Source of the DNA: Rhodospirillaceae bacterium
GTDB lineage: Bacteria > Pseudomonadota > Alphaproteobacteria > SMXQ01
Direction of reading: 5' to 3'
DNA length: 53,231 nt
Assembly: GCA_947474495.1 (NCBI GenBank)
Contig: CANJIM010000011.1
Span: 1 to 53,231, forward strand
In this document: positions 25,974-42,638 of the stretch, in pieces
How positions within the stretch are numbered: position 1 is the stretch's first letter
Layout of the letters: each line of letters starts with the position of its first letter
The notes under the pieces: model-generated
What the model saw: only the letters and a program-made list of their open reading frames with translations
The model's database searches: none
Told to the model about the DNA's origin: nothing
Made by a program: the position numbers and the translations under genes

Positions 25974-26049
25974 ACGCATACGCTGATGTTACGCGGACTG
26001 GTAAGCGCGGCGGCTTTCGCCGCCTCAACGCCGAGCCGGATACGCAGGC

Positions 26050-27111
26050 TTAGCGGTACTTCTTCATGACCACGTCGACCACGCGCTTTTGCTGGTCAGG
26101 CGTGATATTACCGACGCTCGTGGCAATCTTTTTGGTCTCTTCCGGGCCGATGTAATCGACATAGCGCTGGGTCTTCTCGCCTTCGGCGATCAGCGCCGAA
26201 TTGGTCAGCACCTTCTTGGTCGCCGCCTGCAGGAAGGCCAAGCGATCCTTCGGCGTGTTCGGTGTCGTCACCAGCACGCGACCGAGCGCGTCGAGGTTGG
26301 CGCGGAAGTCGAACCACCACTCCTGTTCCGGCGTCAGCTTGGTCGCCTCAAACACCGTCGGCGTGTCGGGCAGGAAGCGCGAGCGCTTGCGGCCGATCGT
26401 CGTGACGGCGACAGCCTGTCCCGACTTCACATAGTTGGCGGCCGTCGAGTCGGACGTGATGATCGAGTCCATCTCGCCGCGAAACACGGCGATGGCGGCT
26501 TCGTTGCTGCCCTGGTAGGCGATGACGACCTTGCAGGGAAGCTGCAGCGCTTCGCAGGTCATCGCGGCGCCGTCGGACAGGCCGCCGGTCGGGCCCGCGC
26601 CGGCCCAGCGGTTGGGCTCTTTGCTGTTGAGGAAATCGGCGACCGTCTTGCGCTTGCCGTCGACGGCGACTTGCCACACCCACGGCGAAGCGCTGACGAT
26701 GCCGAGATAATCGAGCGTGGCGAGGTCATAGCGCACGTTCGGTGTGTCGAGGATTTGATCGACGCCCGCAGCGGTGCCGTTGACGAGCATGAGCTGCAGG
26801 CCGTCGGGCTGCGCCATGGCGATGCGGTTGATGGCGATGAGGCCGCCGGCGCCAGGCTGGTTCTCGACGATCACCGTCGCGCCGAGCTCTTTCTCAAGAT
26901 ACGGCGCGATCATGCGCGCGTAGGCGTCATAACCGCCGCCGGGGCCGAAGCCGACGACAATGCGCACGGTCTTGCCCTTGTAGAAGGCGGCGCTGTCTTG
27001 CGCCCAAGCTTGATTGGCCGCAGGAGCTGCGGCGAAGCCGGCGGCGATCGCGAAAGCCGCCATGGTCGGCAGCAGGGCGCGCCATAGGCGCGCGAAATGG
27101 GGGGCGTTCAT
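26050..27111 (-). CDS. tctC: TctC-family periplasmic binding protein, copy 5 (tandem paralogue)
   Basis: 353 residues from the ATG at 27111, which has an AGGAGAG ribosome site; the frame extends further upstream without one. The signal peptide is long (about 1-38, ending NQAWAQD). It shares the GPGGGYDAYAR and NQPGAGGL loops, the cysteine pair TCEALQLPCK, and WWFDFRANLDALGR with the 24.7 kb copy. The extracytoplasmic two-lobed fold is expected. No membrane subunit is adjacent. The ligand is unknown; the shared cysteine pair, which could form a disulphide in the periplasm, marks these two as a distinct subfamily among the six in the window. Confidence 0.9.
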   Translation of the reverse strand: MNAPHFARLWRALLPTMAAFAIAAGFAAAPAANQAWAQDSAAFYKGKTVRIVVGFGPGGGYDAYARMIAPYLEKELGATVIVENQPGAGGLIAINRIAMAQPDGLQLMLVNGTAAGVDQILDTPNVRYDLATLDYLGIVSASPWVWQVAVDGKRKTVADFLNSKEPNRWAGAGPTGGLSDGAAMTCEALQLPCKVVIAYQGSNEAAIAVFRGEMDSIITSDSTAANYVKSGQAVAVTTIGRKRSRFLPDTPTVFEATKLTPEQEWWFDFRANLDALGRVLVTTPNTPKDRLAFLQAATKKVLTNSALIAEGEKTQRYVDYIGPEETKKIATSVGNITPDQQKRVVDVVMKKYR

Positions 27112-27337
27112 TGATCTCTCCTGGATGGTCATGGCCCTCAATGAAGGAGGGCCAAAACGGTTCGCCCCATGGGGCTGAAGCTCGGGGGGCAAGCCAGCCG
27201 TGGCGAACCGTCTCAGCAGGAGAGTACTTAAGGTCTCGCGAGAGCGAATCCAAGGGTCTTTTACAAGATGTTTATTATTTTATTTCCTATTAGCCCCTGT
27301 TTTATGCATTAAAAACTCACGCCCAAAGCTTAGGCGC

Positions 27338-28408
27338 TTAATCCCTGGCGAGAAGCTCGGCGACCCGGTCCACCACGGGCTTCGGTGTCTGATAGACATG
27401 CTCGAGCATGGCGTTGAGCTTCGCGCCGCCCACCGGATTGACCTCCAGGTCCTGCTTGTCGCATTCGGCGACGAAGTCCTTGTCGAGCATCGTCTTGTCG
27501 AACGCGTCGCGCAGCGCTTTGACGCGATCGGCCGGCATGTTCGGCGGCGCCATCATCGGCCGCCCCATCACCTGCTGCACCAGCACCAGCTCGAGAATCT
27601 GGCGGTCGGCGTCGTTGCGCGCCAGATCGGTGATCAGCGGCAGGTCGGCCGGCAGGGTCGGATCCTTCTCGCTCGCCACCTGCATCAGCATCTTGACCGT
27701 GCCCGCCTTGAGCCAGGGCTCGATGCGGTTGCGGAAGGCCGACGACGAGCCGCCCGACGAATGGGCCACCACTTCACCGCGCTCCAGCGCCAGCAAGGCT
27801 TCCTGCGAACTCTTGTAGCCCTCGATGACCTTGAACTTTGTGCCGAACAGATTGTTCAGCAGGCGTGGATAGACGGAGGTGGCGGCGGCGCGGCCTGTGC
27901 TGCTGGCCGTCAGCTCGTAGGTCTTGAGATCGTCGAGCGTCTTGATCGGCGTGCTGGTCAACACCAGCATGATGCCGATTTCCTGCTGCGGCGTGCCGAT
28001 CCAATTGAACTTGGTCGCTTCGAACTTCACGCTCTTGTCGGCCGGATTGATCAGCGCCTCTATGGCTGCCGCGCGGCCGGTCATGCCGATCTCCGAGCCG
28101 TCCTTCGGTGCGATGCCATAGATGTAATTGGCGGCGATGAGGCCGCCGGCGCCCGGCATCTGCTGCACGACGAAGGTGGGATTGCCGGGGATATAGCGGC
28201 CCATGTAGCGGGTGATCACGCGGCTGTAGGCGTCGTATCCGCCGCCGCCCGCCGAGCCGAGAATGAACTTGATCTGCCGGCCCTTGTAGAACTGCTCGAC
28301 CGACTGCTGCGCGGCGGCCGCCCCGGCGCCGAGCGCCAGGCCGATCGCGGCCAACAACATGGCAGACAACAGCATCCGCGGCCCATGAAGGGCCTGTCTC
28401 ATCGCCAT
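27338..28408 (-). CDS. tctC: TctC-family periplasmic binding protein, copy 6
   Basis: 356 residues from the ATG at 28408 (GGGAG ribosome site 8 bases upstream; the frame is open further but not sensible). The signal peptide is about 1-37 (ending AAAAQQ). TctC loops appear as SAGGGGYDAYSR and QMPGAGG, and NMPADRVKALRDAF lies near 290. It is divergent from a LysR regulator across 187 bases that contain an inverted repeat, so it is a likely target of that regulator. It groups by eye with the copies at 2.8 and 18.8 kb. No membrane partner is adjacent. Confidence 0.9.
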   Translation of the reverse strand: MAMRQALHGPRMLLSAMLLAAIGLALGAGAAAAQQSVEQFYKGRQIKFILGSAGGGGYDAYSRVITRYMGRYIPGNPTFVVQQMPGAGGLIAANYIYGIAPKDGSEIGMTGRAAAIEALINPADKSVKFEATKFNWIGTPQQEIGIMLVLTSTPIKTLDDLKTYELTASSTGRAAATSVYPRLLNNLFGTKFKVIEGYKSSQEALLALERGEVVAHSSGGSSSAFRNRIEPWLKAGTVKMLMQVASEKDPTLPADLPLITDLARNDADRQILELVLVQQVMGRPMMAPPNMPADRVKALRDAFDKTMLDKDFVAECDKQDLEVNPVGGAKLNAMLEHVYQTPKPVVDRVAELLARD

Positions 28409-28524
28409 CGCGTTTACTCCCTGTTCGTGCCGGCGATCTGTCGCCGCCGGCTTGCCGTGAGTATCGAACGCCCCTTTCAGGCCCGTCAACGCCCCAGCCC
28501 GCACAGCTTCAACAGCCACATTCA

Positions 28525-28551
28525 AAATGCGAAAGAGTATCAGGCGCATTT
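28525..28551. promoter_or_regulatory. Inverted repeat in the tctC/lysR divergent region (candidate operator)
   Basis: A perfect 7-bp dyad AAATGCG-N13-CGCATTT lies in the 187-base gap between the divergent tctC and lysR genes. Position and symmetry fit a LysR-type regulator binding site, which typically controls both its own gene and the divergent target. A second short dyad (TGAGG-N4-CCTCA, 28574-28587) lies just before the lysR start. Confidence 0.5.
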
Positions 28552-28595: not shown

Positions 28596-29552
28596 ATGAC
28601 TATCAGACAACTTCGTTACTTCCTGCGCATCGTCGAACTGAAAAGCTTCAGCAAGGCGGCCGCATATCTCCATGTCGCCCAGCCCGCGCTCGGCCTGCAA
28701 ATCCGCAAGCTCGAGGAGGAATTGGGCGTCAAGCTGCTCAACCGCCACTCGCGCGGCGTGTCGGCCACCGAAGCCGGCCTGATCCTGCGCGACCATGCGC
28801 TGATCGTGCTGCGCCAGATCGAGCGCGCCAAGCTGCACCTGATCGACTTCGCCGGCCCGCCGCGCGGCAAGATCGCCGTCGGCGTCACCCCCACCGTCAA
28901 CCTGGTGCTGGCCAGCGCGCTCGTGCAGAAGTGCCGCGCCGAATTGCCCAACGTGTCCCTCAGCATCGTCGAGGGCATGAGCGAGAACCTCATGGAGTGG
29001 GTCGAGAACGACCGGCTCGACATGGCCTTCTCCTACAACCCTGCCGCCGTGCGCGGACTGGTTTGCGAGCCCATGCTGACCGAAGACCTCTGCCTCGTCG
29101 GCCCGCCGAACAGCGCGCTCGCCAAACCGTCGGCCAAGCGCGGTAAGAACAGCGGTCTCGACAGCATCGCCTTTGCGCAGATCGCCGAATTGCCGATGAT
29201 CCTGCCCTCGCCGCCGCATGGCCTGCGCAGCATCGTTGATGAAGTCGCCAACCAGCAGGAGCTTGAACTCAAGATCACGCTCGAGATCGATTCGGTGCCG
29301 GCGACGAAGGAATTGATCGAGAAGGATCTCGGCTACACCATCCTCGGCATGGGCGCGGTGAAGCGCGAAGTCGAAGACGGCCGCCTGACGGCACGCACCA
29401 TCACGGCGCCCAATCTGTCGCGCAACATGTTCCTCGCCTATTCGAGCAAGCGCCCATCATCGAAGGCGAGCAACGCAGTGCGCCAGATCATCCGCACCGT
29501 CGTGCAGGAAGGCATCGGCAGCGGCCAATGGTCGTGGCGCGCGGTCGAGTAA
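28596..29552 (+). CDS. LysR-family transcriptional regulator
   Basis: 318 residues: an N-terminal winged helix-turn-helix (about 1-60; FSKAAAYLHVAQPALGLQIRKLEEELGVKL contains the recognition helix) and a two-lobed periplasmic-binding-like effector domain (about 90-300). LysR proteins usually bind a pathway metabolite and activate a divergent gene; here that is tctC at 27.3-28.4 kb, so the effector may be the imported carboxylate or a product of it. It may also act on the downstream oxidase/bicupin genes. There is no evident ribosome site before the ATG, and a small dyad overlaps the leader. No close functional subgroup could be assigned. Confidence 0.92.
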   Translation: MTIRQLRYFLRIVELKSFSKAAAYLHVAQPALGLQIRKLEEELGVKLLNRHSRGVSATEAGLILRDHALIVLRQIERAKLHLIDFAGPPRGKIAVGVTPTVNLVLASALVQKCRAELPNVSLSIVEGMSENLMEWVENDRLDMAFSYNPAAVRGLVCEPMLTEDLCLVGPPNSALAKPSAKRGKNSGLDSIAFAQIAELPMILPSPPHGLRSIVDEVANQQELELKITLEIDSVPATKELIEKDLGYTILGMGAVKREVEDGRLTARTITAPNLSRNMFLAYSSKRPSSKASNAVRQIIRTVVQEGIGSGQWSWRAVE

Positions 29553-29889: not shown

Positions 29890-30657
29890 ATGCCCCGCGA
29901 TCCGAAGGCCACTGGCGTCTTGAAAGACCTCGACCAGGTCGTCGAAGACTTCATGAACAACACGCGCTTCTTCCACGAGCCCTTCAACGAAGGCCGTGCG
30001 CAGATGTTCGTCTACCAGCATCGCCAGAACACCCGCTATCGCAACTCGGTGCTCAAGCTGAAGGTCGCGACGAACTGCCCGGACTGGGAAACTCGTCTGC
30101 GCGTCATCGGCGCCGCCGCTGAAGAGATCATCGCCGACGACGAGCACGGCGGCGGTTTGCCGCATTGGCAGATCCTGGAAAACCTGGGCCTGGCCGCCGG
30201 CATGTCGAAGGCGAAGATCCGCGCCGCGACCCCGCTGAAGTCCACCCAGCTCGCCTGGAACGCCTGGCACGGCCTGATGGACAACAAGCATTGGCTGCTC
30301 GGTCTGGTCGCCAACGTCGTCGCCGAACGCGCCAACATTTCCGGCTACGGCAAGGGCGGCGAGCTTAAGAAGCACGGCTGGTTCGGCCATGAGCGTCTGC
30401 GCTGGAAGAAGACCCTCGGCCTGCCCGACGACAAGCTGGGCTTCTTCAAGCTTCACGAAGTCGCCGACGAGGTCCACTCCGACCTCGGCTGGAAGAACGT
30501 CAGCAAGTTCGCCAAGGAACTGCGCATGGAGTCCGAGGTCGTCGAAGCCGGCCGTCAGAACCTGGCCGTTTGGGAGCATTATCTCAACGGGATCGGCGAC
30601 GCCGGCGACATCCTGAACAAGGAGTTGAAGCGTTCGGGTCGCAAAGCCACCAAATAG
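29890..30657 (+). CDS. Haem-oxygenase-like diiron oxidase (HDO), predicted
   Basis: A 255-residue, mostly helical cytoplasmic protein of the TenA/PqqC/HDO fold. The metal-ligand pattern of diiron HDO enzymes (such as CADD and UndA) is present: E79-x6-H86, E146, then H189-x3-D193-x2-H196 in LHEVADEVHSD. TenA and PqqC, which lack metal, do not carry this set, so I infer a dinuclear iron oxidase that activates O2. Known HDOs cleave C-C bonds of amino acids or fatty acids or make N-oxides; the substrate here is unknown. The gene has a GGAG ribosome site and is followed by two bicupins and an EutA-like gene in the same direction. A catabolic or cofactor-forming role is possible. Confidence 0.75.
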   Translation: MPRDPKATGVLKDLDQVVEDFMNNTRFFHEPFNEGRAQMFVYQHRQNTRYRNSVLKLKVATNCPDWETRLRVIGAAAEEIIADDEHGGGLPHWQILENLGLAAGMSKAKIRAATPLKSTQLAWNAWHGLMDNKHWLLGLVANVVAERANISGYGKGGELKKHGWFGHERLRWKKTLGLPDDKLGFFKLHEVADEVHSDLGWKNVSKFAKELRMESEVVEAGRQNLAVWEHYLNGIGDAGDILNKELKRSGRKATK

Positions 30658-30727
30658 CGGGGCGCTGCCATAGCAAAATGGCTTGGGCGGCAATAAAATT
30701 GCGCCTTACTTGAGCACTTTTGTATAG

Positions 30728-30769
30728 AACCGCATGTGCTAAATTCGCTATAGCACATGCGGTTTTTTT
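30728..30769 (+). terminator. Terminator-like hairpin directly upstream of bicupin 1
   Basis: A perfect 14-bp inverted repeat (AACCGCATGTGCTA / TAGCACATGCGGTT) with a 9-base loop is followed by a T run, a textbook rho-independent terminator. It ends only 18 bases before the bicupin ATG and immediately before its ribosome site. It may end the oxidase transcript, act as an attenuator in the bicupin leader, or both. Confidence 0.85.
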
Positions 30770-30786
30770 ATTTCGGAGACTCGAAT

Positions 30787-31908
30787 ATGAGCCAGACAGC
30801 CAACGCCGACCTGAAGTTCCTGCTCGACCCCTACGGCGATTGGGCGAAGGACGAGGGCGTGCCGATCATCGAGGCGCTGAGCCTCGATCTGTTCGATGTC
30901 GAGACCAAGCCCTGGGCGCGCTTCGGTACCAACGGCGCCATCGTGCATCTCGATGGCCGCGGCGACTTCACCTCGATGTTCGTGATCGACCTATTGCCGG
31001 GCGGCAAGTCCGCGCCGCAGAAACACATGTTCGAAGCCGTCGTCTATGTCATCGAGGGTAACGGCTCGACCGTCGTCGAGACTTCGGACGGCCGCAAGCA
31101 CACCTTCGAATGGCAGCCGAAAAGCCTGTTCGCCCTGCCGCTGAACGCGAAGTACCAGCACTTCAACGGTTCTGGCAAGGAACGTGCCCGCCTGTCGGTG
31201 GTGAACAACATGCCGATCATGATGAATCTGTTTCACAACAACGATTTCATCTTCGCCAACGATTTCCAGTTCACCGACCGCGAGAGCGGCGACAACTATT
31301 TCGCCGGCGAAGGCGAGTTCATCCCGGTCCGTCCAGGCCGCAACATGTGGGAGACGAATTTCGTCCCCGATCTCTCTGGTTTCGAGTTGAAGACCTGGGA
31401 CGCGCGCGGCAAGGGCTCGTCGAACATGAAGTTCATCCTGGCCGACGGTACGATGCATGCCCACTCGTCGGAAATGCCGGTCGGCACCTACAAGAAGGGC
31501 CACCGCCACGGTCCGGACTTCTACGTTTACACCGTGCATGGCACCGGCTACTCGCTCTGCTGGATGCCGGGGGACAAGGACTTCAAGCGCATCGACTGGA
31601 AGCACGGCGTCGTGTTCGTGCCGACGGAAGGCCTATTCCATCAGCACTTCAACACCAACCCGACCCCGGCGCGTTACCTCGCGATCGCACTCGGCTCGAT
31701 GCGTTATCCCTTCACCGACAGCAAGCGTAAGCTGTTCAGCGGCGGCGTCGACACGTCGGTCGAAAAGGGCGGCAACCAGATCGAGTTCGAGCACCAGGAC
31801 AAGCGCATCCACGGGATCTATCTCACGGAGCTCAAGAAGAACGGCGTGAAGTCGAATATGGCCGACCAGATCGACGAATCGCAGTACGGCGACCTGCTGG
31901 TGAAGTAA
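30787..31908 (+). CDS. Bicupin protein 1
   Basis: 373 residues with two cupin barrels. The N-terminal barrel (about 45-140) has H80, E83 and H125 as metal-site candidates (APQKHMFEAV, YQHFNGSG). The C-terminal barrel (about 205-305) has H239 and H241 in GHRHGPDF and H285/H287 in FHQHFNTNP. The start is the ATG at 30787, with GGAGA ahead; an upstream in-frame ATG lies inside the terminator-like hairpin. Such two-domain cupins include gentisate-type ring-cleaving dioxygenases, but I do not see enough to name the reaction. It is a close paralogue of the next gene. Its own terminator follows. No signal peptide; cytoplasmic. Confidence 0.82.
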   Translation: MSQTANADLKFLLDPYGDWAKDEGVPIIEALSLDLFDVETKPWARFGTNGAIVHLDGRGDFTSMFVIDLLPGGKSAPQKHMFEAVVYVIEGNGSTVVETSDGRKHTFEWQPKSLFALPLNAKYQHFNGSGKERARLSVVNNMPIMMNLFHNNDFIFANDFQFTDRESGDNYFAGEGEFIPVRPGRNMWETNFVPDLSGFELKTWDARGKGSSNMKFILADGTMHAHSSEMPVGTYKKGHRHGPDFYVYTVHGTGYSLCWMPGDKDFKRIDWKHGVVFVPTEGLFHQHFNTNPTPARYLAIALGSMRYPFTDSKRKLFSGGVDTSVEKGGNQIEFEHQDKRIHGIYLTELKKNGVKSNMADQIDESQYGDLLVK

Positions 31909-31932
31909 TTCGCCGCTTCGCCTCATCTCTAC

Positions 31933-31969
31933 AAACGGCCGGACTGAAAAGTCCGGCCGTTTTGCTTTT
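31933..31969 (+). terminator. Rho-independent terminator after bicupin 1
   Basis: A 12-bp perfect stem AAACGGCCGGAC / GTCCGGCCGTTT with a 6-base loop and a T-rich tail, 25 bases past the stop. Confidence 0.88.
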
Positions 31970-32146
31970 AACAGTCGAAAAGACCACAGAATAACGATAA
32001 TAACGGCAAGGCAGGGTCGATAAGGCCCGCCGCACAGGGACGAAACGCGGAGATGGGTGACGCTCGAAGAGCGCCCTTCCCTGCATTGGCATGTACAGCG
32101 ATGGCCGGCCGATCAACGCGCCGCCGCGCCCGTTGGGAGGATGACG

Positions 32147-33277
32147 ATGCCGGACGACTTGAAGGGCATGCCGAGCGACCCCGCTAAGAAATTTCTGCTC
32201 GATCCCTACCTCGACTGGACCAAGAGCGAAGGCTTGCCGGTCTATGAGGACTTCGGCCTCGACGCCTTCGACTGCTCGACGCGGCCGTGGGCCCGCTTTG
32301 ACGCCAAGGGCGCCTTCCTGCATGTCGCGGGACGCGGCGACTTCGTGTCCTGCTTCGCCCTCGAATTGGATCCCGGCCGCAAGACGGCGCCGATGAAGCA
32401 TCTCTTCGAGGCAGTGTCCTACGTCATCGACGGCCACGGCTCGACGACGGTGTGGACGCCCGATGGACGCAAGCACACCTTCGAGTGGGGGCCGAAGAGC
32501 ATGTTCGCCATCCCGCTAAACTGCCGCTATCAGCATTTCAATGGCTCGGGCCGCGAACGCGCGCTGATCACTTGCACGCATGACCTGCCGCTGGTGATGA
32601 ACCTGTTCCACAATCACCAGTTCGTCTTCGATAATCCGTTCGTCTTTGCCGATCGCGTCGGCGATCCGAAATATTTCGACGGTGATGGCGACTTCATCGA
32701 AATGCGTCCGGGCCGGCATATGTGGGAGACGAATTTCGTCCCCGATCTCACCGCCCTCGAATTGAAAACCTGGGACGCGCGCGGCAAGGGCTCCGCCAAC
32801 ATCTGCTTCATCCTGGCCGACGGCACCATGCACGCCCACATCTCGCAAATTCCGACGGCGCGCTACAAGAAGGGCCACCGCCATATGAACGGCGTGCATA
32901 TCTTCGCCGTCAACGGCTCGGGCTACACGCTGGTCTGGTACGAGGGCGACAAGGACTTCAAGCAGATCCCCTGGCGCCACGGCATCATCTATGCGCCGGC
33001 CTTCTGGATGTTCCATCAACATTTCAACACCGCGCCGGAGCCGGCCCGTTACATGGCGATCGCCGTCGGCAGCCGGCGCTATCCCTTTACCGAAATGCGC
33101 CGCAAGGGTGTCGAAGGCGCGGTCGACACCAGCATTGCCGAGGGCGGCCGTCAGGTCGAATACGAGGACCAGGATCCGCGCATCCATCCGATTTGGCTCG
33201 CCGAGATCGCCAAGACCGGCGTGACCTCCCAGATGGGCGATATTTTCGATGAAAATGGCCATGTTCGGCGATCTTAA
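32147..33277 (+). CDS. Bicupin protein 2
   Basis: 376 residues, a paralogue of bicupin 1 over its whole length (shared FLLDPYxDW, RPGRxMWETNFVPDL, ELKTWDARGKGS and FHQHFNT segments). Candidate metal residues are H85, E88 and H130 in the first barrel and H244, H246, H290 and H292 in the second. The start is the ATG at 32147, 6 bases after GGAGG; an ATG six bases earlier overlaps that site. It lies 187 bases upstream of the EutA-like gene, without a terminator between them. The two bicupins may form a heteromer or act on different substrates; the reaction is unknown. Confidence 0.82.
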   Translation: MPDDLKGMPSDPAKKFLLDPYLDWTKSEGLPVYEDFGLDAFDCSTRPWARFDAKGAFLHVAGRGDFVSCFALELDPGRKTAPMKHLFEAVSYVIDGHGSTTVWTPDGRKHTFEWGPKSMFAIPLNCRYQHFNGSGRERALITCTHDLPLVMNLFHNHQFVFDNPFVFADRVGDPKYFDGDGDFIEMRPGRHMWETNFVPDLTALELKTWDARGKGSANICFILADGTMHAHISQIPTARYKKGHRHMNGVHIFAVNGSGYTLVWYEGDKDFKQIPWRHGIIYAPAFWMFHQHFNTAPEPARYMAIAVGSRRYPFTEMRRKGVEGAVDTSIAEGGRQVEYEDQDPRIHPIWLAEIAKTGVTSQMGDIFDENGHVRRS

Positions 33278-33464
33278 GAAGGCCCTTTTCAGAGCTGTCG
33301 TCGCGGCCCATTTCTGTCTCCGAAACCGTTGCCAATCCTGGCTTTCCAGCCGTTGCGGGGCATCGGGCTATCCTCTATGGTCCGGCCACTGCCTGAGCGC
33401 CGTTTTGGCCGCTCTTGCCGACCAATTTCCGCCAAAGTTATTCCGCTAAGCGAAATGGGTAATC

Positions 33465-35027
33465 ATGAAGAACGTAGATGAAGAAGAGCTGATCATGCAC
33501 GACCTAGACTTCGACCACGGCCATATGACCCCCGAGCAACAGCAGGCGGTCGCCGACGTCATCTGGGCGGCCGATAACGTCGAGCTCAAGACTGTCGGCG
33601 TCGACATCGGCTCCTCGACCTCGCATCTGATGTTCTCGCGCGTGCACCTGCAGCGCCTGACCACGGCGCTATCCAGCCGCTTTGTGGTCGTCGGCCGCGA
33701 AGTGCTGTGGCGCTCGCCCATTCTGCTGACGCCCTACAAACTGGACGATAACACCATCGACGTCGCGCAACTCTCGTCGTTCATCGACGGCGCCTACAAG
33801 GAAGCCGGCCTGACGCGCGATGATATCGATTCGGGCGCGGTCATCCTCACCGGCGAAGCGCTCAAGCGCAACAACGCCGAGGCGATCACCCATCTGTTCG
33901 CCGGTGAGACCGGCAAGTTCGTCACTGCGTCCGCCGGTCACCATCTTGAATGCGCCATGGCCGCGAACGGCTCGGGCGCGGTTGCCCTGTCGCGCCGCGA
34001 GAAGGCTTGCATCCTCAATATCGACATCGGCGGCGGCACCACCAAGCTCGGCCTCGTCGAAAAGGGCCAGTTGCTGCAGACCACCGCTTTCGAAGTCGGC
34101 GGCCGCCTCATCGCGTTCGACGCCGAAGGCCGCATGGTCCGCATCGAAGGCCCGGCGATCAAGCATGCCGCGCAGGCCGGCATCACCCTGAAGAAGGGCG
34201 AGAAGCTCAGCGACGACGAAAAGACCAAAATCTGCGACGTCATGGCCGACGTCCTGGTCGCCCATGTGATGCAGACGGACGCCACCGGCCACGCCAAGGA
34301 CATGCTGGTGACCGAACCGCTGCCGAAGGACCCGGTGCCGGTCGGCATTACCTTCTCCGGCGGCGTGTCGGAATTCATCTACGGCCGCGAGACCAACGAT
34401 TATGGCGATCTCGGCAAGTTCCTCGCCGACGCCATCGTGCGCCGTCTCAAGTCGAAAAAGATTCCCTATAAAATTTACGATCCGGGCGCCGGCATTCGCG
34501 CCACCGTGATCGGCGCCTCGCAGTTCTCCGTGCAGGTTTCGGGCAACACCATTTCGATCACCAATCAAGACGCGCTGCCGCTGCGCAACGTGCCGGTGCT
34601 GTCGCCCAAGGTATCCCTCGCCACCGACGAAATTTCTGCCAAGGACGTCAAAGAGGCCATTCTCAAGGCCTTCACTCGCTTCGACTTCAAGGAAGGCGAG
34701 ATCGCCATCGCCCTGTCGCTGCGCTGGGAGGGCGATCCTCTGCACGCCCGCATCAAGGCCGTCGCCGATGGCATCGTTGCCGCCCTGCCCAAGACGGCAG
34801 CCGGTGCCCAGCCCCTGGTGCTGATGCTCGACGGCGACATCGGCAAGACACTCGGCGTCGTGCTGAAGCGGGAATGCGACGTGAAGGCTGACATCATTTC
34901 GGTCGATGGCGTCTCGCTCAAAGAATTCGACTATGTCGATATCGGCGAGATGATCCGCCCGACCAACGTCGTGCCGCTGGTCATCAAGTCACTGCTATTC
35001 TCCAGCCCCGGCGTCTTGAAGAAATAG
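33465..35027 (+). CDS. eutA: EutA-like ethanolamine ammonia-lyase reactivase homologue
   Basis: EutA is an actin/Hsp70-fold ATPase that removes damaged adenosylcobalamin from ethanolamine ammonia-lyase. This 520-residue protein matches it along its length: the phosphate-1 loop VGVDIGSSTSHLMFSR (45-60), LWRSPILLTPY, SGAVILTGEALKRNNAEA, SAGHHLECAMAANGSGA, the phosphate-2 loop LNIDIGGGTTKLG and TFSGGVSEF. An N-terminal extension of about 40 residues and a long C-terminal part make it longer than E. coli EutA (about 467). ATG at 33495, with a better ribosome site, is an alternative start. No eutB, eutC or other B12 enzyme is in the window, so the client is unknown. Confidence 0.85.
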   Translation: MKNVDEEELIMHDLDFDHGHMTPEQQQAVADVIWAADNVELKTVGVDIGSSTSHLMFSRVHLQRLTTALSSRFVVVGREVLWRSPILLTPYKLDDNTIDVAQLSSFIDGAYKEAGLTRDDIDSGAVILTGEALKRNNAEAITHLFAGETGKFVTASAGHHLECAMAANGSGAVALSRREKACILNIDIGGGTTKLGLVEKGQLLQTTAFEVGGRLIAFDAEGRMVRIEGPAIKHAAQAGITLKKGEKLSDDEKTKICDVMADVLVAHVMQTDATGHAKDMLVTEPLPKDPVPVGITFSGGVSEFIYGRETNDYGDLGKFLADAIVRRLKSKKIPYKIYDPGAGIRATVIGASQFSVQVSGNTISITNQDALPLRNVPVLSPKVSLATDEISAKDVKEAILKAFTRFDFKEGEIAIALSLRWEGDPLHARIKAVADGIVAALPKTAAGAQPLVLMLDGDIGKTLGVVLKRECDVKADIISVDGVSLKEFDYVDIGEMIRPTNVVPLVIKSLLFSSPGVLKK

Positions 35028-35077
35028 GTAACGAGCGCATCGAGGCGTGGAAACGGCTTCACAAGAGTAAGACGAGC

Positions 35078-36304
35078 ATGGACGCTTCGGCGACGATCGG
35101 CACAACCCGGCAAGACATCAGGATTCTCGGCCTGATATCGACGGGCCACTTCATGAGCCATTTCTATATCCTCGCCTTGCCGCCGCTGTTCTTTTTCCTC
35201 GCCGCCGATTTCAATGTCGGCTTCGCCGAGCTCGGTCTGATCATGACGGTGATCTTCGGCACCTCGGCGATCGCCCAGATTCCCATGGGCTTCCTCGTCG
35301 ACCGCTTCGGTTCGCGCAAAGTACTGACCGCCGGTCTCATCATCATGTCGAGCGCCGTCGCACTTGTCGGCTTCGCGCAAGCCTTCTGGCAGCTCATCCC
35401 GCTCGCCATCCTGATCGCGGTCGGCAATAGCGTATTCCACCCGTGCGACTACGCGATCCTCAATAGCTCGATTAATAGCAGCCGCATGGGCCGCGCCTTC
35501 TCGATCCACACCTTCGCGGGCCATCTCGGCTCGGCCGTCGCGCCGGCGACCATGATCATCCTGTCCAGCCAGTTCGGCTGGCGCGTCGCTCTGACGCTCG
35601 TCGGCCTGTTCGGCATCCTGGTGATGTTCGCGCTTGCCACCCAGTGGAATAGCCTGCGCGATGACGCCATTCCGAAAAAGCAGGACAACAAGGCGCAAGC
35701 CGATCCCGGCGTGAAGGACGGTTGGGCGCTACTGCTCTCGGCGCCGATGATGCTGTTCATGCTGTTCTTCGGCGTGCTCTCCATGGCGGCAGCGGGGATC
35801 CAGTCCTTCTTCGTCTCGGCCATGACCAGCTTGCACGGCACGCCGGTGACCACCGCCAGCCTCGCCCTCACCGTCTATCTGTTCTCCAGCGCCGGCGGCA
35901 TCCTGATCGGCGGCGAGATTTCCGACCGCACCAAGCGCCACGACATCGTCGCCGCCATCGTCTTCGTGCTCAGCGCCCTCATCACCGCCTGCATCGCCTG
36001 GTTCGATCTCAGCATCGGCATCCTCGTCGGCATCATGGCGCTGATGGGCCTTGGCCAGGGCATCATCCGCCCGGCGCGCGACATGATGGTGCGCGCCGCC
36101 TCGCCCAAGGGCTCCACCGGCAAGGTCTTCGGCTTCGTCTCCACCGGCATCGCCGGCGGCTCCGCCCTCGCCCCCGTTCCGTTCGGCTATCTGCTCGATA
36201 TCGGCCAGCCCGAATGGGTATTCTACCTTCTGTCGATCTTCATGATCGTCGCGCTCTTCACTGTGATGATCCCGAAAGACATGCAGGGATCGTCGGTCAA
36301 ATAA
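35078..36304 (+). CDS. MFS transporter
   Basis: A 408-residue inner-membrane protein with 12 hydrophobic segments and a central charged loop (about 195-212). The MFS helix 2-3 motif is present as GFLVDRFGSRKVLTA (near 70). HPCDYAILNSS and GRAFSIHTFAGHLGSAVAP are shared almost exactly with the MFS protein at 37.5 kb, so the two are paralogues. It begins 50 bases after the EutA-like gene and probably shares its transcript. Import of a carboxylate or export of a product are both possible; the substrate is unknown. Confidence 0.88.
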   Translation: MDASATIGTTRQDIRILGLISTGHFMSHFYILALPPLFFFLAADFNVGFAELGLIMTVIFGTSAIAQIPMGFLVDRFGSRKVLTAGLIIMSSAVALVGFAQAFWQLIPLAILIAVGNSVFHPCDYAILNSSINSSRMGRAFSIHTFAGHLGSAVAPATMIILSSQFGWRVALTLVGLFGILVMFALATQWNSLRDDAIPKKQDNKAQADPGVKDGWALLLSAPMMLFMLFFGVLSMAAAGIQSFFVSAMTSLHGTPVTTASLALTVYLFSSAGGILIGGEISDRTKRHDIVAAIVFVLSALITACIAWFDLSIGILVGIMALMGLGQGIIRPARDMMVRAASPKGSTGKVFGFVSTGIAGGSALAPVPFGYLLDIGQPEWVFYLLSIFMIVALFTVMIPKDMQGSSVK

Positions 36305-36310
36305 TCACCG

Positions 36311-36354
36311 CGCGCCTCGCCCGTCGTTGTGATCGGAAGGCGCGTGTTTTTTTT
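36311..36354 (+). terminator. Probable terminator after the MFS gene
   Basis: CGCGCCT / AGGCGCG arms (7 bp) enclose a loop of about 20 bases and are followed by TG and eight T residues. The large loop lowers confidence. Confidence 0.5.
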
Positions 36355-36379
36355 CAATCGTCAGTCATCGAGGAATTTC

Positions 36380-37369
36380 ATGTCGAAGCTGCAACTCACC
36401 ATTGCGACCAGTGAATATGACCACATCACGGACCTGATGACCGGCCGCGTTCCGGTCGAGGGCATCGACATCAATTATCTCAACTTCGAGATTGAGGAGA
36501 TCTTCTACCGCTTCGTGCTCAACCGCGAATGGGAAGTCTCCGAGATGTCCTTTGCGAAGTTCGTCGCCCAGGTCTCGGGCGACAACCCCGACATCGTCGG
36601 CATTCCGGTTTTCCCGTCGCGCGTCTTCCGCCTGTCCAACATCTACGTTCGCAAAGACAGCCCGATTAAGGAGCTGAAGGACCTGCGCGGCAAGAAGATG
36701 GGCACGCCGGAATGGGCGCAAACGGCCTCGGTCTATACCCGCGGCGTGCTGGTCGACGACGCCGGCATTAAGCTCAATGAGATCGACTGGTACCAGGCCG
36801 GCGTCAACCAGCCGGGCCGCATCGAAAAGGTGAAGCTGAACCTGCCGGCCGGCGTGAAGGTGACGCCGCGTCCCGACAAGTCGCTCGGCACGCTGCTGAT
36901 CGACGGCGACGTCGACGCCATCATGAGCGCCCATCCGCCGCACCAGTTCGAAGAGGGCCACCCGGGCATCGTCCGCCTGTTCGCCGACTATCAGAGCGTC
37001 GAAGAGGCCTACTACAAGCGCACCAAGATTTTCCCGATCATGCATGTCATCGCCATCCGCAAGGACGTGCTCGATAAGAACCCCTGGGTCGCCGTCAACC
37101 TGTTCAACGCCTTCGAGAAGGCCAAGGACCGTTCGGTCGCCCGCTGCCTCGAGATGACCGCCTCGCGCTTCCCGGTTCCCTGGGGCTTCGACTATGCCGA
37201 GAAGCGCAAGCAGATGTTCGGCAAGGACATGTTCCCCTACGGCATCGAGGACAACCGCACCACGATCGAAGCCTTCCTCAAGTGGACCTTCGAGCAGGGT
37301 ATCGCCCAGCGCCATTTGAAGCCCGAAGATCTCTTCTCGCCGAATATCCGCGGCAAGTACAAGATCTAA
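36380..37369 (+). CDS. 4,5-dihydroxyphthalate decarboxylase / NMT1-family protein, copy 1
   Basis: 329 residues, without signal peptide, of the periplasmic-binding-protein-like family that includes the 4,5-dihydroxyphthalate decarboxylase of phthalate breakdown. Features: a start typical of that group (LTIATSEYDHITDLMTGRVPVEGI), VSEMSFAKFV, the conserved GIPVFPSRVFRLSNIYV (about 72-89), KDLRGKKMGTPEWAQTASVYTRG and HVIAIRKDVLDKNPWV. Lack of a secretion signal favours a cytoplasmic enzyme over a transport binding protein. The ATG at 36380 has a GAGGAA ribosome site. It lies between two paralogous MFS transporters. The reaction may be decarboxylation of an aromatic acid, but the exact substrate is not readable. 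Confidence 0.78.
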   Translation: MSKLQLTIATSEYDHITDLMTGRVPVEGIDINYLNFEIEEIFYRFVLNREWEVSEMSFAKFVAQVSGDNPDIVGIPVFPSRVFRLSNIYVRKDSPIKELKDLRGKKMGTPEWAQTASVYTRGVLVDDAGIKLNEIDWYQAGVNQPGRIEKVKLNLPAGVKVTPRPDKSLGTLLIDGDVDAIMSAHPPHQFEEGHPGIVRLFADYQSVEEAYYKRTKIFPIMHVIAIRKDVLDKNPWVAVNLFNAFEKAKDRSVARCLEMTASRFPVPWGFDYAEKRKQMFGKDMFPYGIEDNRTTIEAFLKWTFEQGIAQRHLKPEDLFSPNIRGKYKI

Positions 37370-37541: not shown

Positions 37542-38774
37542 ATGACGGCGACAGCCGAGAGTATGCGGCAGGACGGCAAGATCATGGGTCTGGTCTGCAC
37601 CGGCCATTTTCTCAGTCATTTTTATTCCTTCTGCCTGCCGCCGCTGTTTCCTTTCATCAACGCCGATCTCGGCTTGAGCTATACGGCGCTCGGCGCGCTG
37701 TTGACGTTGCGCGGCCTCGCCACCTCTGTCGCCCAATTGCCCGCCGGCTTCATCGTCGATCGCTTCGGCGCCAAGCTGGTCTTGCTCACCGGTCTCATAA
37801 TGACCGTGGTCGGCTACGCCCTCTTCGCCACGGTGGACATCTATTGGCTGTTCATCGCCTTCATTCTGCTCGGCGGCATCGGCGACAGCGTGTTCCATCC
37901 GGCCGACTACGCCATCCTCAACGCCTCGGTGGCGCAGGAGAGGATGGGACGGGCCTTCTCGGTCCACACCTTCTCCGGCCATCTCGGCTTCGCCTGCGCA
38001 CCGACCGTGGTGGTCGGGCTCGCCGCTCTGTGGAATTGGCGCATCTCCCTGCTGATCGTGTCGCTCGCCGGCATCGTCGTGGCTGCTTTGCTCGCCAGCC
38101 AATGGGGCGCCCTCAAGGACGAAGGTGGCGCGCCGAAAAAGAAGAAGGCCGAACCGGTTGACCTGAACGCCCCCAAACAGACTTGGTTTCAGGCCAAACT
38201 CGGCATGATCCTCAACGCGCCGGTGCTGTCGCTGTTCGGCTTCTTCGTCATTTCCACCATGGCGAGCGGCGGCATCTCTAGCTTCTCGATCTCGGCCCTG
38301 ACCAAGATGCACGACATTCCGGAATGGGCCCTTGGCTTCTCGGTGACCGGCTACATGTTGGCGAGCGCTTTCGCTGTGCTGGCCGGCGGCTACCTCGCCG
38401 ACAAGCTGCCGATGAGCGCCAGCATGTTCGCCGGCCTCGGCTTCCTCGCCGCGGCCGCTATCGTCGCCAGCATCGGGCTTTTCCCGCTGCCCTACGCGTT
38501 GATGATCCTGCTCTTCCCGCTGGCGGGTTTTTTCCTCGGCGTCATCCGTCCGGCGCGCGATCTCATGGTGCGCGACGTCGCACCCAAGGGCCAGTCGGGC
38601 AAGGTGTTCGGCTTCGTCTTCTCGGGCCAAAGCCTCGGCGGCAGTATCGCGCCGATCTTCTACGGCCTGATCCTCGACCACATGGCGCCGCAGAACGTGT
38701 TTTACGTCTCCGCCGGCTTCCTTGTGCTGGGCGTGTTCACGGTCATTTCCACGGCGAAAATCCGCCACGGCTGA
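37542..38774 (+). CDS. MFS transporter (paralogue of the 35 kb copy)
   Basis: 410 residues from the ATG at 37542, preceded by GGGGGCG; the frame is open further upstream but crosses the preceding terminator. It has twelve hydrophobic segments, the motif GFIVDRFGAKLVLLTG, a charged middle loop rich in K and P (about 195-215), and the paired motif IRPARDLMVRDVAPKGQSGKVFGF in the C-terminal half. Shared segments with the MFS protein at 35 kb show duplication. It is followed after 137 bases by the molybdenum hydroxylase genes, with no clear terminator between. Confidence 0.88.
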   Translation: MTATAESMRQDGKIMGLVCTGHFLSHFYSFCLPPLFPFINADLGLSYTALGALLTLRGLATSVAQLPAGFIVDRFGAKLVLLTGLIMTVVGYALFATVDIYWLFIAFILLGGIGDSVFHPADYAILNASVAQERMGRAFSVHTFSGHLGFACAPTVVVGLAALWNWRISLLIVSLAGIVVAALLASQWGALKDEGGAPKKKKAEPVDLNAPKQTWFQAKLGMILNAPVLSLFGFFVISTMASGGISSFSISALTKMHDIPEWALGFSVTGYMLASAFAVLAGGYLADKLPMSASMFAGLGFLAAAAIVASIGLFPLPYALMILLFPLAGFFLGVIRPARDLMVRDVAPKGQSGKVFGFVFSGQSLGGSIAPIFYGLILDHMAPQNVFYVSAGFLVLGVFTVISTAKIRHG

Positions 38775-38911: not shown

Positions 38912-39790
38912 GTGAAACCGCCTCCCTTCAGCTATCATGATCCGCGCACCGTCGCCGAGGCGGTCTCGCTGCTGAGCACGCTTGAGAATCCCAAGCTGCT
39001 CGCCGGCGGCCAGTCGCTCATGCCGATGCTCAACATGCGCTTCGTCTTGCCCGACCATGTCATCGACCTCGGCAAGATCGACGGCCTCGCCTATATCCGC
39101 GAGGCCCCATCGAAAGAAGGAGGCAACGCGCTCGAGATCGGCGCCATGACGCGCCAGCGCGACATCGAGTTCTCCGAGCTGATCGCCGCCAAGCATCCGC
39201 TGCTGCGCGAAGGCATCCTCAACGTCGGCCATCGCCAGACGCGCAACCGCGGCACCATCGGCGGCTCGCTCTGCCATCTCGACCCCGCCGCCGAACAGGT
39301 GCTGGTCTGCCTGGCAAGTGACGCTATCGTCACCGCTGCCGGCCCGAACGGCGAGCGCGCCATTCCCTTCCGCGAGTTTCCCCTCGCCTACATGACGCCG
39401 AACCTCGAGCCCGACGAGATGCTGATCGGCATCAAGATTCCGCTGTGGCCCGCCGGACATGGCTACAGCTTCCTGGAGTTCGCCCGCCGCCATGGCGACT
39501 TCGCCGTCGTCTCGGTCGCCGCCCTGCTCGATGTCGACGCTGGCGGCATCATCAAACGCGCCGCCGTGGCCCTGGGCGGCGTCGCCGCCGTGCCGCTGCG
39601 CATGGACGCAGTCGAGGCCCGGCTGGTCGGCCAAAAAGCCTCGGAAGAACTGTTCCGCGATGCCGCCGAGATCTGCCGCGCCATCGACGCCGTCGCCGAT
39701 GTCCATGCCACCGTCGAATATCGCCAGCATCTTGCTGCCGTGCTGACCCGCCGCGCGCTCGTGCAAGCCCTCGCCAAAGTGAAGCGCTGA
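38912..39790 (+). CDS. Molybdenum hydroxylase FAD subunit (CoxM-like)
   Basis: The 292-residue medium subunit that carries FAD and passes electrons in CO-dehydrogenase/xanthine-dehydrogenase family enzymes. FAD-binding motifs LAGGQSLMPMLNMR (about 30-43) and RGTIGGSLCHLDPAAE (about 112-127) are intact, followed by the C-terminal domain. It starts at a GTG (38912); the stop overlaps the start of the iron-sulphur subunit gene by one base (TGATG). The gene order FAD - 2Fe2S - Mo subunit is the usual M-S-L order of cox-type clusters. Confidence 0.93.
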   Translation: MKPPPFSYHDPRTVAEAVSLLSTLENPKLLAGGQSLMPMLNMRFVLPDHVIDLGKIDGLAYIREAPSKEGGNALEIGAMTRQRDIEFSELIAAKHPLLREGILNVGHRQTRNRGTIGGSLCHLDPAAEQVLVCLASDAIVTAAGPNGERAIPFREFPLAYMTPNLEPDEMLIGIKIPLWPAGHGYSFLEFARRHGDFAVVSVAALLDVDAGGIIKRAAVALGGVAAVPLRMDAVEARLVGQKASEELFRDAAEICRAIDAVADVHATVEYRQHLAAVLTRRALVQALAKVKR

Positions 39791-40293
39791 TGGAAAGCCG
39801 CAAGATCACCGTCACCGTCAACGGCCAGGCCCACACGCGCGACGTCGAGACGCGCATGACGCTGGCCGACTTCCTGCGCCATGACCTCGGCATGACCGGC
39901 ACCCATGTCGGTTGCGAGCATGGCGTCTGCGGCGCCTGCACCATCCTGCTCGACGGCCGCACCGCCCGCTCCTGCCTGACCCTCGCTGTCCAGACCGACG
40001 GCCATGCCATCGACACCATCGAGGGCATGGCGCCCAACCCGAAAGACAAGACGGCCCCGATGCATCCCTTGCAGGAGGCCTTCCGCGACAACCATGCCCT
40101 GCAATGCGGCTTTTGCACGCCGGGCATGCTGACGACCATCATCGAGCTGCTGCGCGACAATCCGGAACCGAGCGCCGATGAGGTCCGCATCGCCATCTCC
40201 GGCAATCTCTGCCGCTGCACAGGCTACCAAACCATCGTCGCCGCCACGCTCGATGCCGCCAAGCGTCTGAAGGCTGAGGGCCGCAAGCCATGA
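39790..40293 (+). CDS. Molybdenum hydroxylase [2Fe-2S] subunit (CoxS-like)
   Basis: The 167-residue small subunit with two [2Fe-2S] clusters. The plant-ferredoxin-type set is GCEHGVCGACTILLDG (about 43-58) with a further Cys in RSCLTLAVQ; the second cluster set is QCGFCTPGM and CRCTGYQTI in the helical C-terminal domain. It overlaps the FAD-subunit gene by one base and the Mo-subunit gene by four (ATGA), so the three subunits are translationally coupled. It transfers electrons from the molybdenum site to FAD. Confidence 0.95.
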   Translation: MESRKITVTVNGQAHTRDVETRMTLADFLRHDLGMTGTHVGCEHGVCGACTILLDGRTARSCLTLAVQTDGHAIDTIEGMAPNPKDKTAPMHPLQEAFRDNHALQCGFCTPGMLTTIIELLRDNPEPSADEVRIAISGNLCRCTGYQTIVAATLDAAKRLKAEGRKP

Positions 40294-42638
40294 GCGCCCC
40301 CAGTTCTCCGCTCCGCAGCAACCGCGTGCTGCGCGTCGAAGACCCCGATCTGCTGAAGGGCAGTGGCAAGTTCGTCGACGACATGCACCTGCCCGGTATG
40401 CTGCAGGCCGCCTTCGTGCGCAGCCCGATGGGCCACGCCAAGGTCGTCAGCATCGACGTCTCGGCCGCCCTTGAGGTGCCCGGCGTCCATCGCGTGCTGA
40501 CGCGCGACGATCTGCTGCCGCATCTCGCCACCGAATTCATCGTCGTCGGCCTGCCGAGCCCCGCCTACAAGCAAGACATCAACCGCCCGGCGCTGTCCGG
40601 CCTGGAAGTCGTCCATGTCGGCGAGCCGGTCGCTATCGTGCTGGCCGACAACCGCTACATCGCCGAAGACGCAGCCGCCCTGGTCATGGTCGAGTACGAC
40701 CCGCTGCCCGCCGTCGGCGATCCACGCGAGGCTCTGAAGCCCGGCGCGCCGCTCGTCCATTCGTCCTCGCCGCACAATCTCCTCGCCGAGTTCGACATGG
40801 GCTATGGCGATGTCGATGCCGCCTTCGCCAGCGCGCCGCACGTGTTCAAGGAAAGCCTGTGGCAGCATCGCGGCGGCGGTCATTCCATCGAATGCCGCGG
40901 CGACGTCGCCGCTTACGACCCCTTCTCCGAGACGCTGACCCTGTGGAGCTCGACCCAGACGCCGCACGCCGGCCGCTCGGTGCTGGCCGGTATGCTCGGC
41001 TGGGAAGAAGAGCGCATTCGCGTCGTCACGCCCGACGTCGGCGGCGGCTTTGGTCCGAAATTGATCTTCTATCCGGAAGACGTCGCCGTGGCCCTCGCCG
41101 CCTATATCACCGGCCGCCCGGTGAAATGGATCGAAGACCGCCGCGAGCATTTCGTCGCCACCACGCAAGAGCGCGACCAATATTGGGACGTTGAGATCGC
41201 CGTCGACGACAATGCCAAGATACTCGGCCTGCGTGGCAGCATCGTCCACGACCATGGCGCCTACACGGCGCGCGGCGTCAACCTGCCCTACGAGTCGGCG
41301 CAGACCGTCACGCTGGCCTACGAGATCCCCGCCTACTTCATGAACGTGAAGCTGGCGCTGACCAACAAGGTGCCGGTCACGCCCGTGCGCGGCGCCGGCC
41401 AGCCGCAGGGCGTGTTCTGCATGGAGCGCATGCTCGATCGCGTGGCGCGCGAGCTGAAGCTCGACCGCGCCGAAGTGCGCAGCCGCAATCTGATCACCGC
41501 CGCCCAGATGCCCTATACCAAGCCGCTGAAATCGCGCGGCGGCCGTCAGGTCGTGCTGGATTCCGGTAACTACCCCGCCTGCCAGGCCGACGCGCTGGCC
41601 AAGGCCGGCCTCGCCGATTTCCCGGCCCGCCAGGCCGCCGCCCGCGCCGAGGGGCGTCACATCGGCCTCGGCTTCGCCAATTTCGTCAAAGGCACCGGGC
41701 GCGGCCCGTTCGAGCCGGTGACCGTGCGCGTCGATCCGGCGAGCGGCAAGGTCAACGTCTATAGCGGCGCGACCGCCATGGGCCAGAGCACCAAGACCAT
41801 GTTTGCGCAGATCGTCGCCGAGCAGCTCGGCGGCGACATCTCGCTGATCAACGCCAAGCCGGGCGACACCGGCAGCATCGCCATGGGCCTCGGCGGCTTC
41901 AACAGCCGCCTCGCCGTCATGGCCGGCTCGTCGGCCCATCTCGCCGCCATCAAGGTGCGCGACAAGGCCCTGCTGATCGCCAGCAAGGTACTCAAATTAC
42001 CGATCGAGGACTTGCATCTGATCGGCGGCAGGGTCGAGGCCAAGAGCGATCCGAGCAAATCCATCACCCTCGGGCAACTTGCGAAAAGCGTGGCTGGCGT
42101 CGCCGGCTTCGTGCTGCCCGACGGCGTGACGCCAGGCCTGGAGGCCACCGAGCATTTCGTCGTCGACGACATGGCCTATGCCAACGGCTGCGCCGCCGTC
42201 GAGGTCGAGGTCGACGCCGAGACCGGCGGCGTGCATATCAACAAATTCGTCATCGCCCACGACTGCGGCGCGGTGATCAATCCCATGGTGGTGGATGGCC
42301 AGATCGTCGGCGCCGTGGCGCACGGCATCGGCAACGCGCTCTACGAATGGATGGGCTTCGACGACAATTGCCAGCCGGTGACCACCAACCTCGGCGAGTA
42401 CCTGCTGATCACCGCCCCCGAAGTGCCCTTCATCGAAGTGTCGCACCACGAATCGCCGACTTACCTGAATCCGCTCGGGGTCAAAGGCGTCGGCGAATGC
42501 GGCGTTGTGCCGACGGCGGCCGCCATCATGTCGGCCATCGAAGACGCGCTGAAGGAGTTCAACGTCTTCATCGCCCAGACGCCGATCACTCCCGGCGAGA
42601 TCGTCGCCAAGATCGAAGCGGGCCGCAAAAGCGCCTAA
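40290..42638 (+). CDS. Molybdenum hydroxylase large subunit (xanthine dehydrogenase family)
   Basis: The 782-residue molybdopterin-cytosine-dinucleotide-binding subunit that hydroxylates its substrate at an activated C-H using water. Seen are VGGGFGPK (about 250), the active-site loop TPVRGAGQPQG with R367, and the catalytic base E736 in GVGECG. The loop lacks the AYRCSFR motif of genuine form I CO dehydrogenase, so the enzyme is more likely an aldehyde, aromatic or N-heterocycle hydroxylase, or a hydroxybenzoyl-CoA-reductase relative. It ends the M-S-L operon before a convergent terminator. A CoxG-like protein, usually linked to such enzymes, is encoded 4 kb away on the other strand. Confidence 0.92.
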   Translation: MSAPSSPLRSNRVLRVEDPDLLKGSGKFVDDMHLPGMLQAAFVRSPMGHAKVVSIDVSAALEVPGVHRVLTRDDLLPHLATEFIVVGLPSPAYKQDINRPALSGLEVVHVGEPVAIVLADNRYIAEDAAALVMVEYDPLPAVGDPREALKPGAPLVHSSSPHNLLAEFDMGYGDVDAAFASAPHVFKESLWQHRGGGHSIECRGDVAAYDPFSETLTLWSSTQTPHAGRSVLAGMLGWEEERIRVVTPDVGGGFGPKLIFYPEDVAVALAAYITGRPVKWIEDRREHFVATTQERDQYWDVEIAVDDNAKILGLRGSIVHDHGAYTARGVNLPYESAQTVTLAYEIPAYFMNVKLALTNKVPVTPVRGAGQPQGVFCMERMLDRVARELKLDRAEVRSRNLITAAQMPYTKPLKSRGGRQVVLDSGNYPACQADALAKAGLADFPARQAAARAEGRHIGLGFANFVKGTGRGPFEPVTVRVDPASGKVNVYSGATAMGQSTKTMFAQIVAEQLGGDISLINAKPGDTGSIAMGLGGFNSRLAVMAGSSAHLAAIKVRDKALLIASKVLKLPIEDLHLIGGRVEAKSDPSKSITLGQLAKSVAGVAGFVLPDGVTPGLEATEHFVVDDMAYANGCAAVEVEVDAETGGVHINKFVIAHDCGAVINPMVVDGQIVGAVAHGIGNALYEWMGFDDNCQPVTTNLGEYLLITAPEVPFIEVSHHESPTYLNPLGVKGVGECGVVPTAAAIMSAIEDALKEFNVFIAQTPITPGEIVAKIEAGRKSA

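Follow-up and report, generated by a model that had tools for sequence, protein, structure and literature searches.

What would bring together, on one strand, genes for a haem-oxygenase-like oxidase, two bicupins, an EutA-like ATPase, a transporter of the MFS family and a decarboxylase-like protein? Such a run lies at positions 29890-37369 of a 53,231-nucleotide contig (CANJIM010000011.1, assembly GCA_947474495.1; the window) from a Rhodospirillaceae bacterium. The window spans this contig from end to end; the genome has 127 contigs and 3.0 Mb, and the whole genomes used here are drafts. Its order is small (11 genomes, one family), with named relatives labelled Alphaproteobacteria or Rhizobium. 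The original prediction, made from the letters of the sequence, placed the six genes here on the same strand, and all six open reading frames were indeed found on the + strand. The families it named also hold (Haem_oxygenas_2, EutA PF06277, MFS_1 and a decarboxylase of the 9jp7 type), the cupin matches in Pfam being weak. It further put the focus on the oxidase as the defining enzyme and suggested that the run could be an oxygen-dependent route for an unusual aromatic or amine-containing carboxylate. We find that the recurrent element is instead a pairing of the EutA-like ATPase with bicupins.

EutA-like ATPases are mostly encoded beside bicupins

The pairing of EutA-like genes with bicupins is solid. 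An alignment of EutA-like proteins scanned over 84,980 species genomes gave 552 relatives, and the best 80 loci were kept; these are the loci nearest to the query, so that the proportions apply to this EutA-like clade. Beside 61 of the 87 EutA-like genes in these loci, in organisms from Proteobacteria to Chloroflexi, a bicupin gene lay on the same strand at a distance of at most 350 bp, with 33 matches downstream and 30 upstream. These counts carry no correction for common descent, but several phyla and either gene order are represented among the pairs. Among cultured bacteria, Phyllobacterium trifolii (L175) and Marinobacter denitrificans (L146) each have such a pair. Six EutA-like genes directly follow a UbiD-like gene instead, with small cupins two genes on.

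The same association was evident in 289 genomes of the class, a sample chosen independently of the EutA scan. Bicupins of this type were present in 7 of these genomes, and EutA-like genes were confined to 6 of the same 7 (p = 9e-12; 1e-6 without the window's own order); the seventh bicupin-bearing genome, which has no EutA-like gene, is 70% complete. The three of these genomes that lie outside the order have 8 EutA-like genes between them, of which 6 adjoin a bicupin and 2 a UbiD-like gene. The window's own genome contains three further EutA paralogues, of which the copies on contigs C49 and C20 adjoin bicupins and that on C113 has none on its short contig. A literature search, covering open-licence papers only, returned no report on the pairing. 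On contig C20 (locus L100, 6197-12674) the genes for a Rieske oxygenase, a bicupin, an EutA-like protein, a bicupin and a Rieske oxygenase stand in a row, which constitutes a second type of locus.

The ATPase belongs to a separate clade with His-rich extensions

The window protein matches the Pfam EutA family at 405 bits (gathering score 27; 5e-121). Like EutA, the ethanolamine ammonia-lyase reactivating factor, it belongs to this family over its full length and keeps the ATP-motif columns, which are invariant in the alignment of EutA-like proteins (D38, G40, D178, G180-G182 and S289-V292). However, it scores under every NCBIfam cut-off for EutA (best 355 bits against 598), and in a quick maximum-likelihood tree, with three canonical EutA as outgroup and rows picked by similarity to the query, the EutA-like proteins formed one group apart from canonical EutA (SH-aLRT 100, branch 3.4). 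A sequence search of the PDB with the protein gave no match.

The clade also differs from EutA at its termini. Whereas canonical EutA has 8 residues ahead of the first ATP motif, most members of the clade have a stretch of 20-80 residues with many His and acidic side chains, typically of the form MHD..FDHxH; the window protein begins MHDLDFDHGHM. These lengths are approximate, since a rule set the start codons in the survey; the genes of the loci were called with a simple codon model. An N-terminal His cluster is present in 68 of the 87 proteins, His makes up 8.0% of the extension and 2.4% of the core, and a C-terminal tail with 5-27 His occurs in 12 of the 87. Both the N-terminal His extension and the C-terminal His tail are missing from canonical EutA as encoded in three eut operons. 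In seven loci (L162, L163, L168, L174, L181, L184 and L190) the C-terminal tail carries 13-27 His and there is no directly adjacent bicupin; some of these genes follow a 4,5-dihydroxyphthalate decarboxylase homologue.

A role as reactivase of a B12 enzyme, ethanolamine ammonia-lyase, was considered and rejected: EutB was not found in the window's own genome by a search whose E. coli control was positive, and neither EutB nor EutC was matched in any of the 80 loci. The protein had been described beforehand as a reactivase homologue, which is correct as to its homology with EutA, but its partner is evidently a bicupin and not a B12 enzyme. HypB and similar proteins are His-rich metallochaperones with a nucleotide-driven step. 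The EutA-like clade resembles them in combining an NTPase with a His-rich, putatively metal-binding tail and in being encoded beside the gene of a presumed metalloenzyme, but its fold is different (ASKHA/EutA). The His-rich regions, together with the reactivase ancestry of the family, suggest that the ATPase may handle metal.

The bicupins resemble three-His dioxygenases

The two bicupins of the window are 58-61% identical to each other. In the C-terminal cupin, residues H239, H241, H285 and H287 (numbered from the Met at 30787) are invariant in 50 of 50 family members, and bicupin 2 has the same four His. In contrast, the N-terminal site is degenerate: its first His is replaced by Q, M, V or A, and the other two are kept in 42 and 36 of the 50. 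No conserved Glu follows the HxH motif (positions 245-246; alignment of 50).

A sequence search matched gentisate 1,2-dioxygenase (GDO) 3bu7 weakly (2e-7). An AF2 model of bicupin 1 (pLDDT 93.9), compared by VIA-align, had its best structural matches in 3bu7 (Z 21.2) and 2phd (Z 20.6), the values for proteins of the GDO and salicylate dioxygenase (SDO) type being Z 20-21 and rmsd 3.0-3.4, and the rmsd 3.4 over 256-264 residues for these two. GDO binds its Fe through three His (His119/121/160) with no Glu, and His162 of motif 2 is the proton donor (PMC4019311); H239, H241 and H285, with H287, correspond to these residues. The window bicupins thus share with GDO/SDO-type bicupins the fold, the HxH plus HxH set and the absence of a Glu in motif 1, and look like three-His dioxygenases of this kind whose active site would lie in the C-terminal cupin. 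By the same family resemblance, iron would be the metal, ring cleavage the reaction and an aromatic-type acid the substrate. A 3H1E site of the oxalate decarboxylase type was also considered and is less likely, as the HxH motif is not followed by a conserved Glu, although fold scores by themselves fail to tell the two types apart.

Bicupin homologues number 7-26 per 2.4-4.1 Mb genome in the order, many of them in tandem, an unusual lineage-specific expansion. Three stand in tandem on contig C9 of the window's own genome (L101, 8944-12261).

The cluster is conserved in the order but the HDO is not always part of it

In 10 of the 11 genomes of the order, an orthologue of the EutA-like gene (66-96% identity) is flanked by bicupins. 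The MFS and decarboxylase-like genes flank it too wherever the contig allows, MFS transporter 1 being kept beside it in most clusters. Since orthologous clusters occur in other genera, the locus is not a chance arrangement. The gene for the oxidase, a predicted haem-oxygenase-like dimetal oxidase (HDO), lies directly ahead of the bicupins in 6 of the 10 clusters (the window's own and those of G216, G113, G657, G661 and G662), is unreadable in G659, where the contig ends, and is absent from G655, G656 and G660, in which the flank is intact and the rest of the run is kept. The expectation that the genes stay together is therefore borne out for the core of bicupin, EutA-like, MFS and decarboxylase genes and only in part for the HDO. 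A degraded HDO in the G660 cluster was considered and rejected: an unrelated open reading frame of about 245 aa occupies the spot, and no HDO remnant was found there. In G662 (L092, 14463-16256) two tandem HDO genes precede the bicupins, with 62% and 70-71% identity to the window HDO.

The HDO matches Pfam Haem_oxygenas_2 at 41.7 bits (cut-off 28.9; E 1.4e-10). A complete ligand set of the form E-x6-H / E / H-x3-D-x2-H had been claimed for it, and such a set is invariant in an alignment of 8 homologues (55-69% identity to the window protein), as E85, H92, E146, H189, D193 and H196. The E-x6-H pair had been given as E79/H86, and this does not hold: position 86 varies (H, F or Y, with F/Y in 6 of the 8) while E85 and H92 are invariant, so that the pair is E85/H92. 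E79 is invariant too, but without a surviving E-x6-H partner. In the HDO profile the E85/H92 stretch falls on the E-x6-H segment of 4-aminobenzoate synthase 9pj4, to which the protein has detectable similarity, and the E85-H92-E146 spacing equals that of CADD (E81, H88, E142). The window protein shares its ligand set with the HDO family (CADD, NePabS, UndA and SznF).

These data bear on the possibility that the HDO carries the key step of catabolism, for example oxidative decarboxylation or N-oxygenation of an imported acid, with the other proteins accessory. The six invariant ligands speak for this reading, as does the distribution of the HDO: its close homologues in the class sample occur only where bicupin and EutA-like genes co-reside, including two genomes outside the order. 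Homologues at 55-60% identity are rare outside the order (2 of 286 class genomes at E < 1e-80). In G210 (L009), also outside the order, the HDO gene is directly followed by that of a dihydroxyphthalate decarboxylase homologue. However, the rest of the run is kept in three genomes that have no HDO, and according to a 2026 review the HDOs that have been characterised are linked to the biosynthesis of natural products and cofactors (PMC13108848), whereas the window HDO sits in a locus of transport and catabolism. We consider a key role unlikely, and the HDO was not borne out as the defining enzyme of the locus. A plasmid search with the HDO gave no match, and in phylum-wide samples few genomes have an HDO, a bicupin or an EutA-like gene.

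A model for the locus

Taken together, these results suggest a model to which we give an even chance: the genes of the run serve the oxygen-dependent catabolism of an aromatic-type, perhaps N-heteroaromatic, carboxylate, and the three-His bicupin dioxygenase among their products is maintained by a dedicated, metal-handling EutA-like ATPase. In such a pathway the MFS proteins would import the acid, and the HDO and the Pht5-type decarboxylase would modify it; their homologues are likewise paired in G210. The bicupins would then cleave the ring with O2 as three-His Fe(II) dioxygenases, although the order of these steps is conjectural. The EutA-like protein would be their dedicated partner, an ATP-driven metal loader or reactivator supplying or removing metal, with its His/acidic extension binding that metal. 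A broader proposal, which we hold more tentatively and a little short of evens, is that the window contains one copy of a module that is widespread but has not been described. In it, an ATPase of the EutA clade (Hsp70/actin fold), equipped with His-rich tails, would load the metal of a mononuclear bicupin dioxygenase of the three-His kind or reactivate it, the window copy having in addition a catabolic HDO.

The setting is consistent with catabolism of an aromatic-type acid. The decarboxylase-like protein is a full-length homologue of the solved 4,5-dihydroxyphthalate decarboxylase 9jp7 (233 bits, 4.5e-68, residues 2-327 of 328) with no obvious signal peptide in its sequence; its gene is outside any phthalate dioxygenase cluster. 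Elsewhere, the same module is found near a Rieske oxygenase and reductase, UbiD, dihydroxyphthalate decarboxylase, TctABC transporters and a class II aldolase; these neighbours, with the molybdenum hydroxylase of the window, point to aromatic-type acid catabolism. Several loci of the UbiD type have a gene for a NicO-type metal permease after the EutA-like one, in line with metal handling. Of the route first proposed, the aromatic part is still the best reading, given the three-His bicupins, the decarboxylase, the MFS proteins and the molybdenum hydroxylase, and the amine part is neither supported nor excluded.

Several observations weigh against this model, in addition to the three clusters that have no HDO. 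The EutA-like genes that have no adjoining bicupin lie in some cases by UbiD, dihydroxyphthalate decarboxylase or TctC genes and in others by no searched family, and the ATPase may thus have other clients besides the bicupin; conversely, most bicupins of the window's own genome have no EutA-like neighbour. The 3H1E oxalate decarboxylases and the seed storage globulins score nearly as high as GDO against the bicupin model (Z 18-19.5), and identity to GDO is about 16% over the structural alignment (10-16% to GDO/SDO proteins). The intact site of the window bicupins is C-terminal, whereas the active site of GDO/SDO is N-terminal; in homogentisate dioxygenase, however, the site used is C-terminal (PMC4019311), and two-site bicupins exist (PMC10306065). 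For the HDO, whose metal site is predicted from the sequence, an AF2 model from 3 sequences reached pLDDT 42. Finally, no experiment on any member was found in the open-licence literature.

The ATPase might instead act on substrate or electron flow, the bicupin merely belonging to the same pathway. Among ASKHA-related proteins, hydantoinase and acetophenone carboxylase energise an intermediate, and activators of the BcrA/D type drive electron transfer. By analogy the EutA-like protein could phosphorylate or energise an intermediate or drive electron transfer, in keeping with its weak Pfam matches to BcrAD_BadFG (2e-6) and Hydantoinase_A (0.013) and with its position by UbiD and dihydroxyphthalate decarboxylase genes in loci where no bicupin is adjacent. 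However, EutA is by far the strongest family match, over the full length, the preferred neighbour is one enzyme family, and the His-rich tails would have no role; we find this explanation doubtful.

Alternatively, the protein might reactivate the bicupin in a chaperone-like manner, by changing the oxidation state of its iron or stripping inactive iron, with the His region a secondary metal sink. Mononuclear Fe(II) dioxygenases are inactivated by oxidation, and EutA itself strips damaged cobalamin; homology to a reactivase and the retained ATP-motif columns fit such a role. It differs from metal loading only in the direction of metal traffic, and the two are inseparable by sequence alone, but as a separate explanation we regard it as improbable. 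It is most improbable that the genes lie together simply because the lineage is rich in catabolic genes, and not through any functional pairing; the neighbour survey and the co-occurrence test largely refute this. The 7-26 bicupins per genome would make chance neighbours likelier within the order, but EutA-like genes and bicupins are found side by side in phyla that are not related, with either gene first, and again in the genome sample drawn without bias.

If the EutA-like ATPase does load or repair the metal site, it would amount to an energy-driven upkeep of mononuclear non-haem iron dioxygenases. This could explain the poor activity of such dioxygenases when expressed alone, would provide a handle on large bicupin families that have no assignment in uncultured bacteria, and would place an HDO in catabolism. 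NCBI family models name EutA homologues 'ethanolamine ammonia-lyase reactivating factor', which would mislead here, the partner appearing to be a cupin dioxygenase.

Layout of the locus and its surroundings

The run extends beyond 37369 through a second MFS transporter and genes for a CoxM/S/L-type hydroxylase (Table 1). CoxM and CoxS are supported by domain profiles, and the CoxL call is based on the open reading frame and gene order; CoxM and CoxS also follow the run in the sister genome G216. A strong hairpin, a putative terminator, separates the two bicupin genes, so a single transcript for the run is not certain. LysR orthologues stand directly ahead of the cluster in G216, G655 and G656.

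Table 1. Features of the run and its borders, with positions in the window
Feature	Position	Strand	Basis and remarks
LysR-type regulator gene	28596..29552	+	LysR_substrate 5.4e-39, HTH_1 3.6e-22; precedes run
HDO gene, 255 aa	29890..30657	+	Pfam Haem_oxygenas_2; alignment of 8 homologues; alignment to 9pj4
Codons of putative HDO ligands E85, H92, E146	30142-30144, 30163-30165, 30325-30327	+	invariant columns
Codons of putative HDO ligands H189, D193, H196	30454-30456, 30466-30468, 30475-30477	+	invariant columns
Bicupin 1, GDO/SDO-like	30787..31908	+	alignment of 50; AF2 model; structural match to 3bu7
Terminator-like hairpin, 13-pair stem, between bicupins 1 and 2	31933..31962	+	consensus scan; putative terminator
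Bicupin 2, paralogue of bicupin 1	32141..33277	+	alternative start 32057
EutA-like ASKHA-type ATPase, His/acidic N-terminus	33495..35027	+	PF06277; neighbour and N-terminal surveys; alternative start 33465
MFS transporter 1	35078..36304	+	MFS_1 2.3e-49
4,5-dihydroxyphthalate decarboxylase (Pht5) homologue	36380..37369	+	full-length match to 9jp7
MFS transporter 2	37542..38774	+	MFS_1 5.6e-48
CoxM/CoxS/CoxL-type molybdenum hydroxylase genes	38912-39790, about 39790-40293, 40290-42638	+	FAD_binding_5, CO_deh_flav_C and Fer2 domains
Strong terminator-like hairpin	42659-42686		end of run; consensus scan

Three further groups of genes in the window may be mentioned. Upstream of the run, three genes for TctC-type solute-binding proteins lie on the - strand (24735-28549), and G216 (L010) has orthologues of each of them beside its cluster. 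A second dihydroxyphthalate decarboxylase homologue (44466-45455, - strand) adjoins EtfA/EtfB-like genes (42711-44413), and a fragment of a UbiD-like decarboxylase (52596-53231) is cut by the contig end. Lastly, a sister genome whose EutA-like gene is 96% identical to that of the window (L112) was deposited as 'Rhizobium sp. Q54'; our search places this genome in the window's order, and the label looks wrong.

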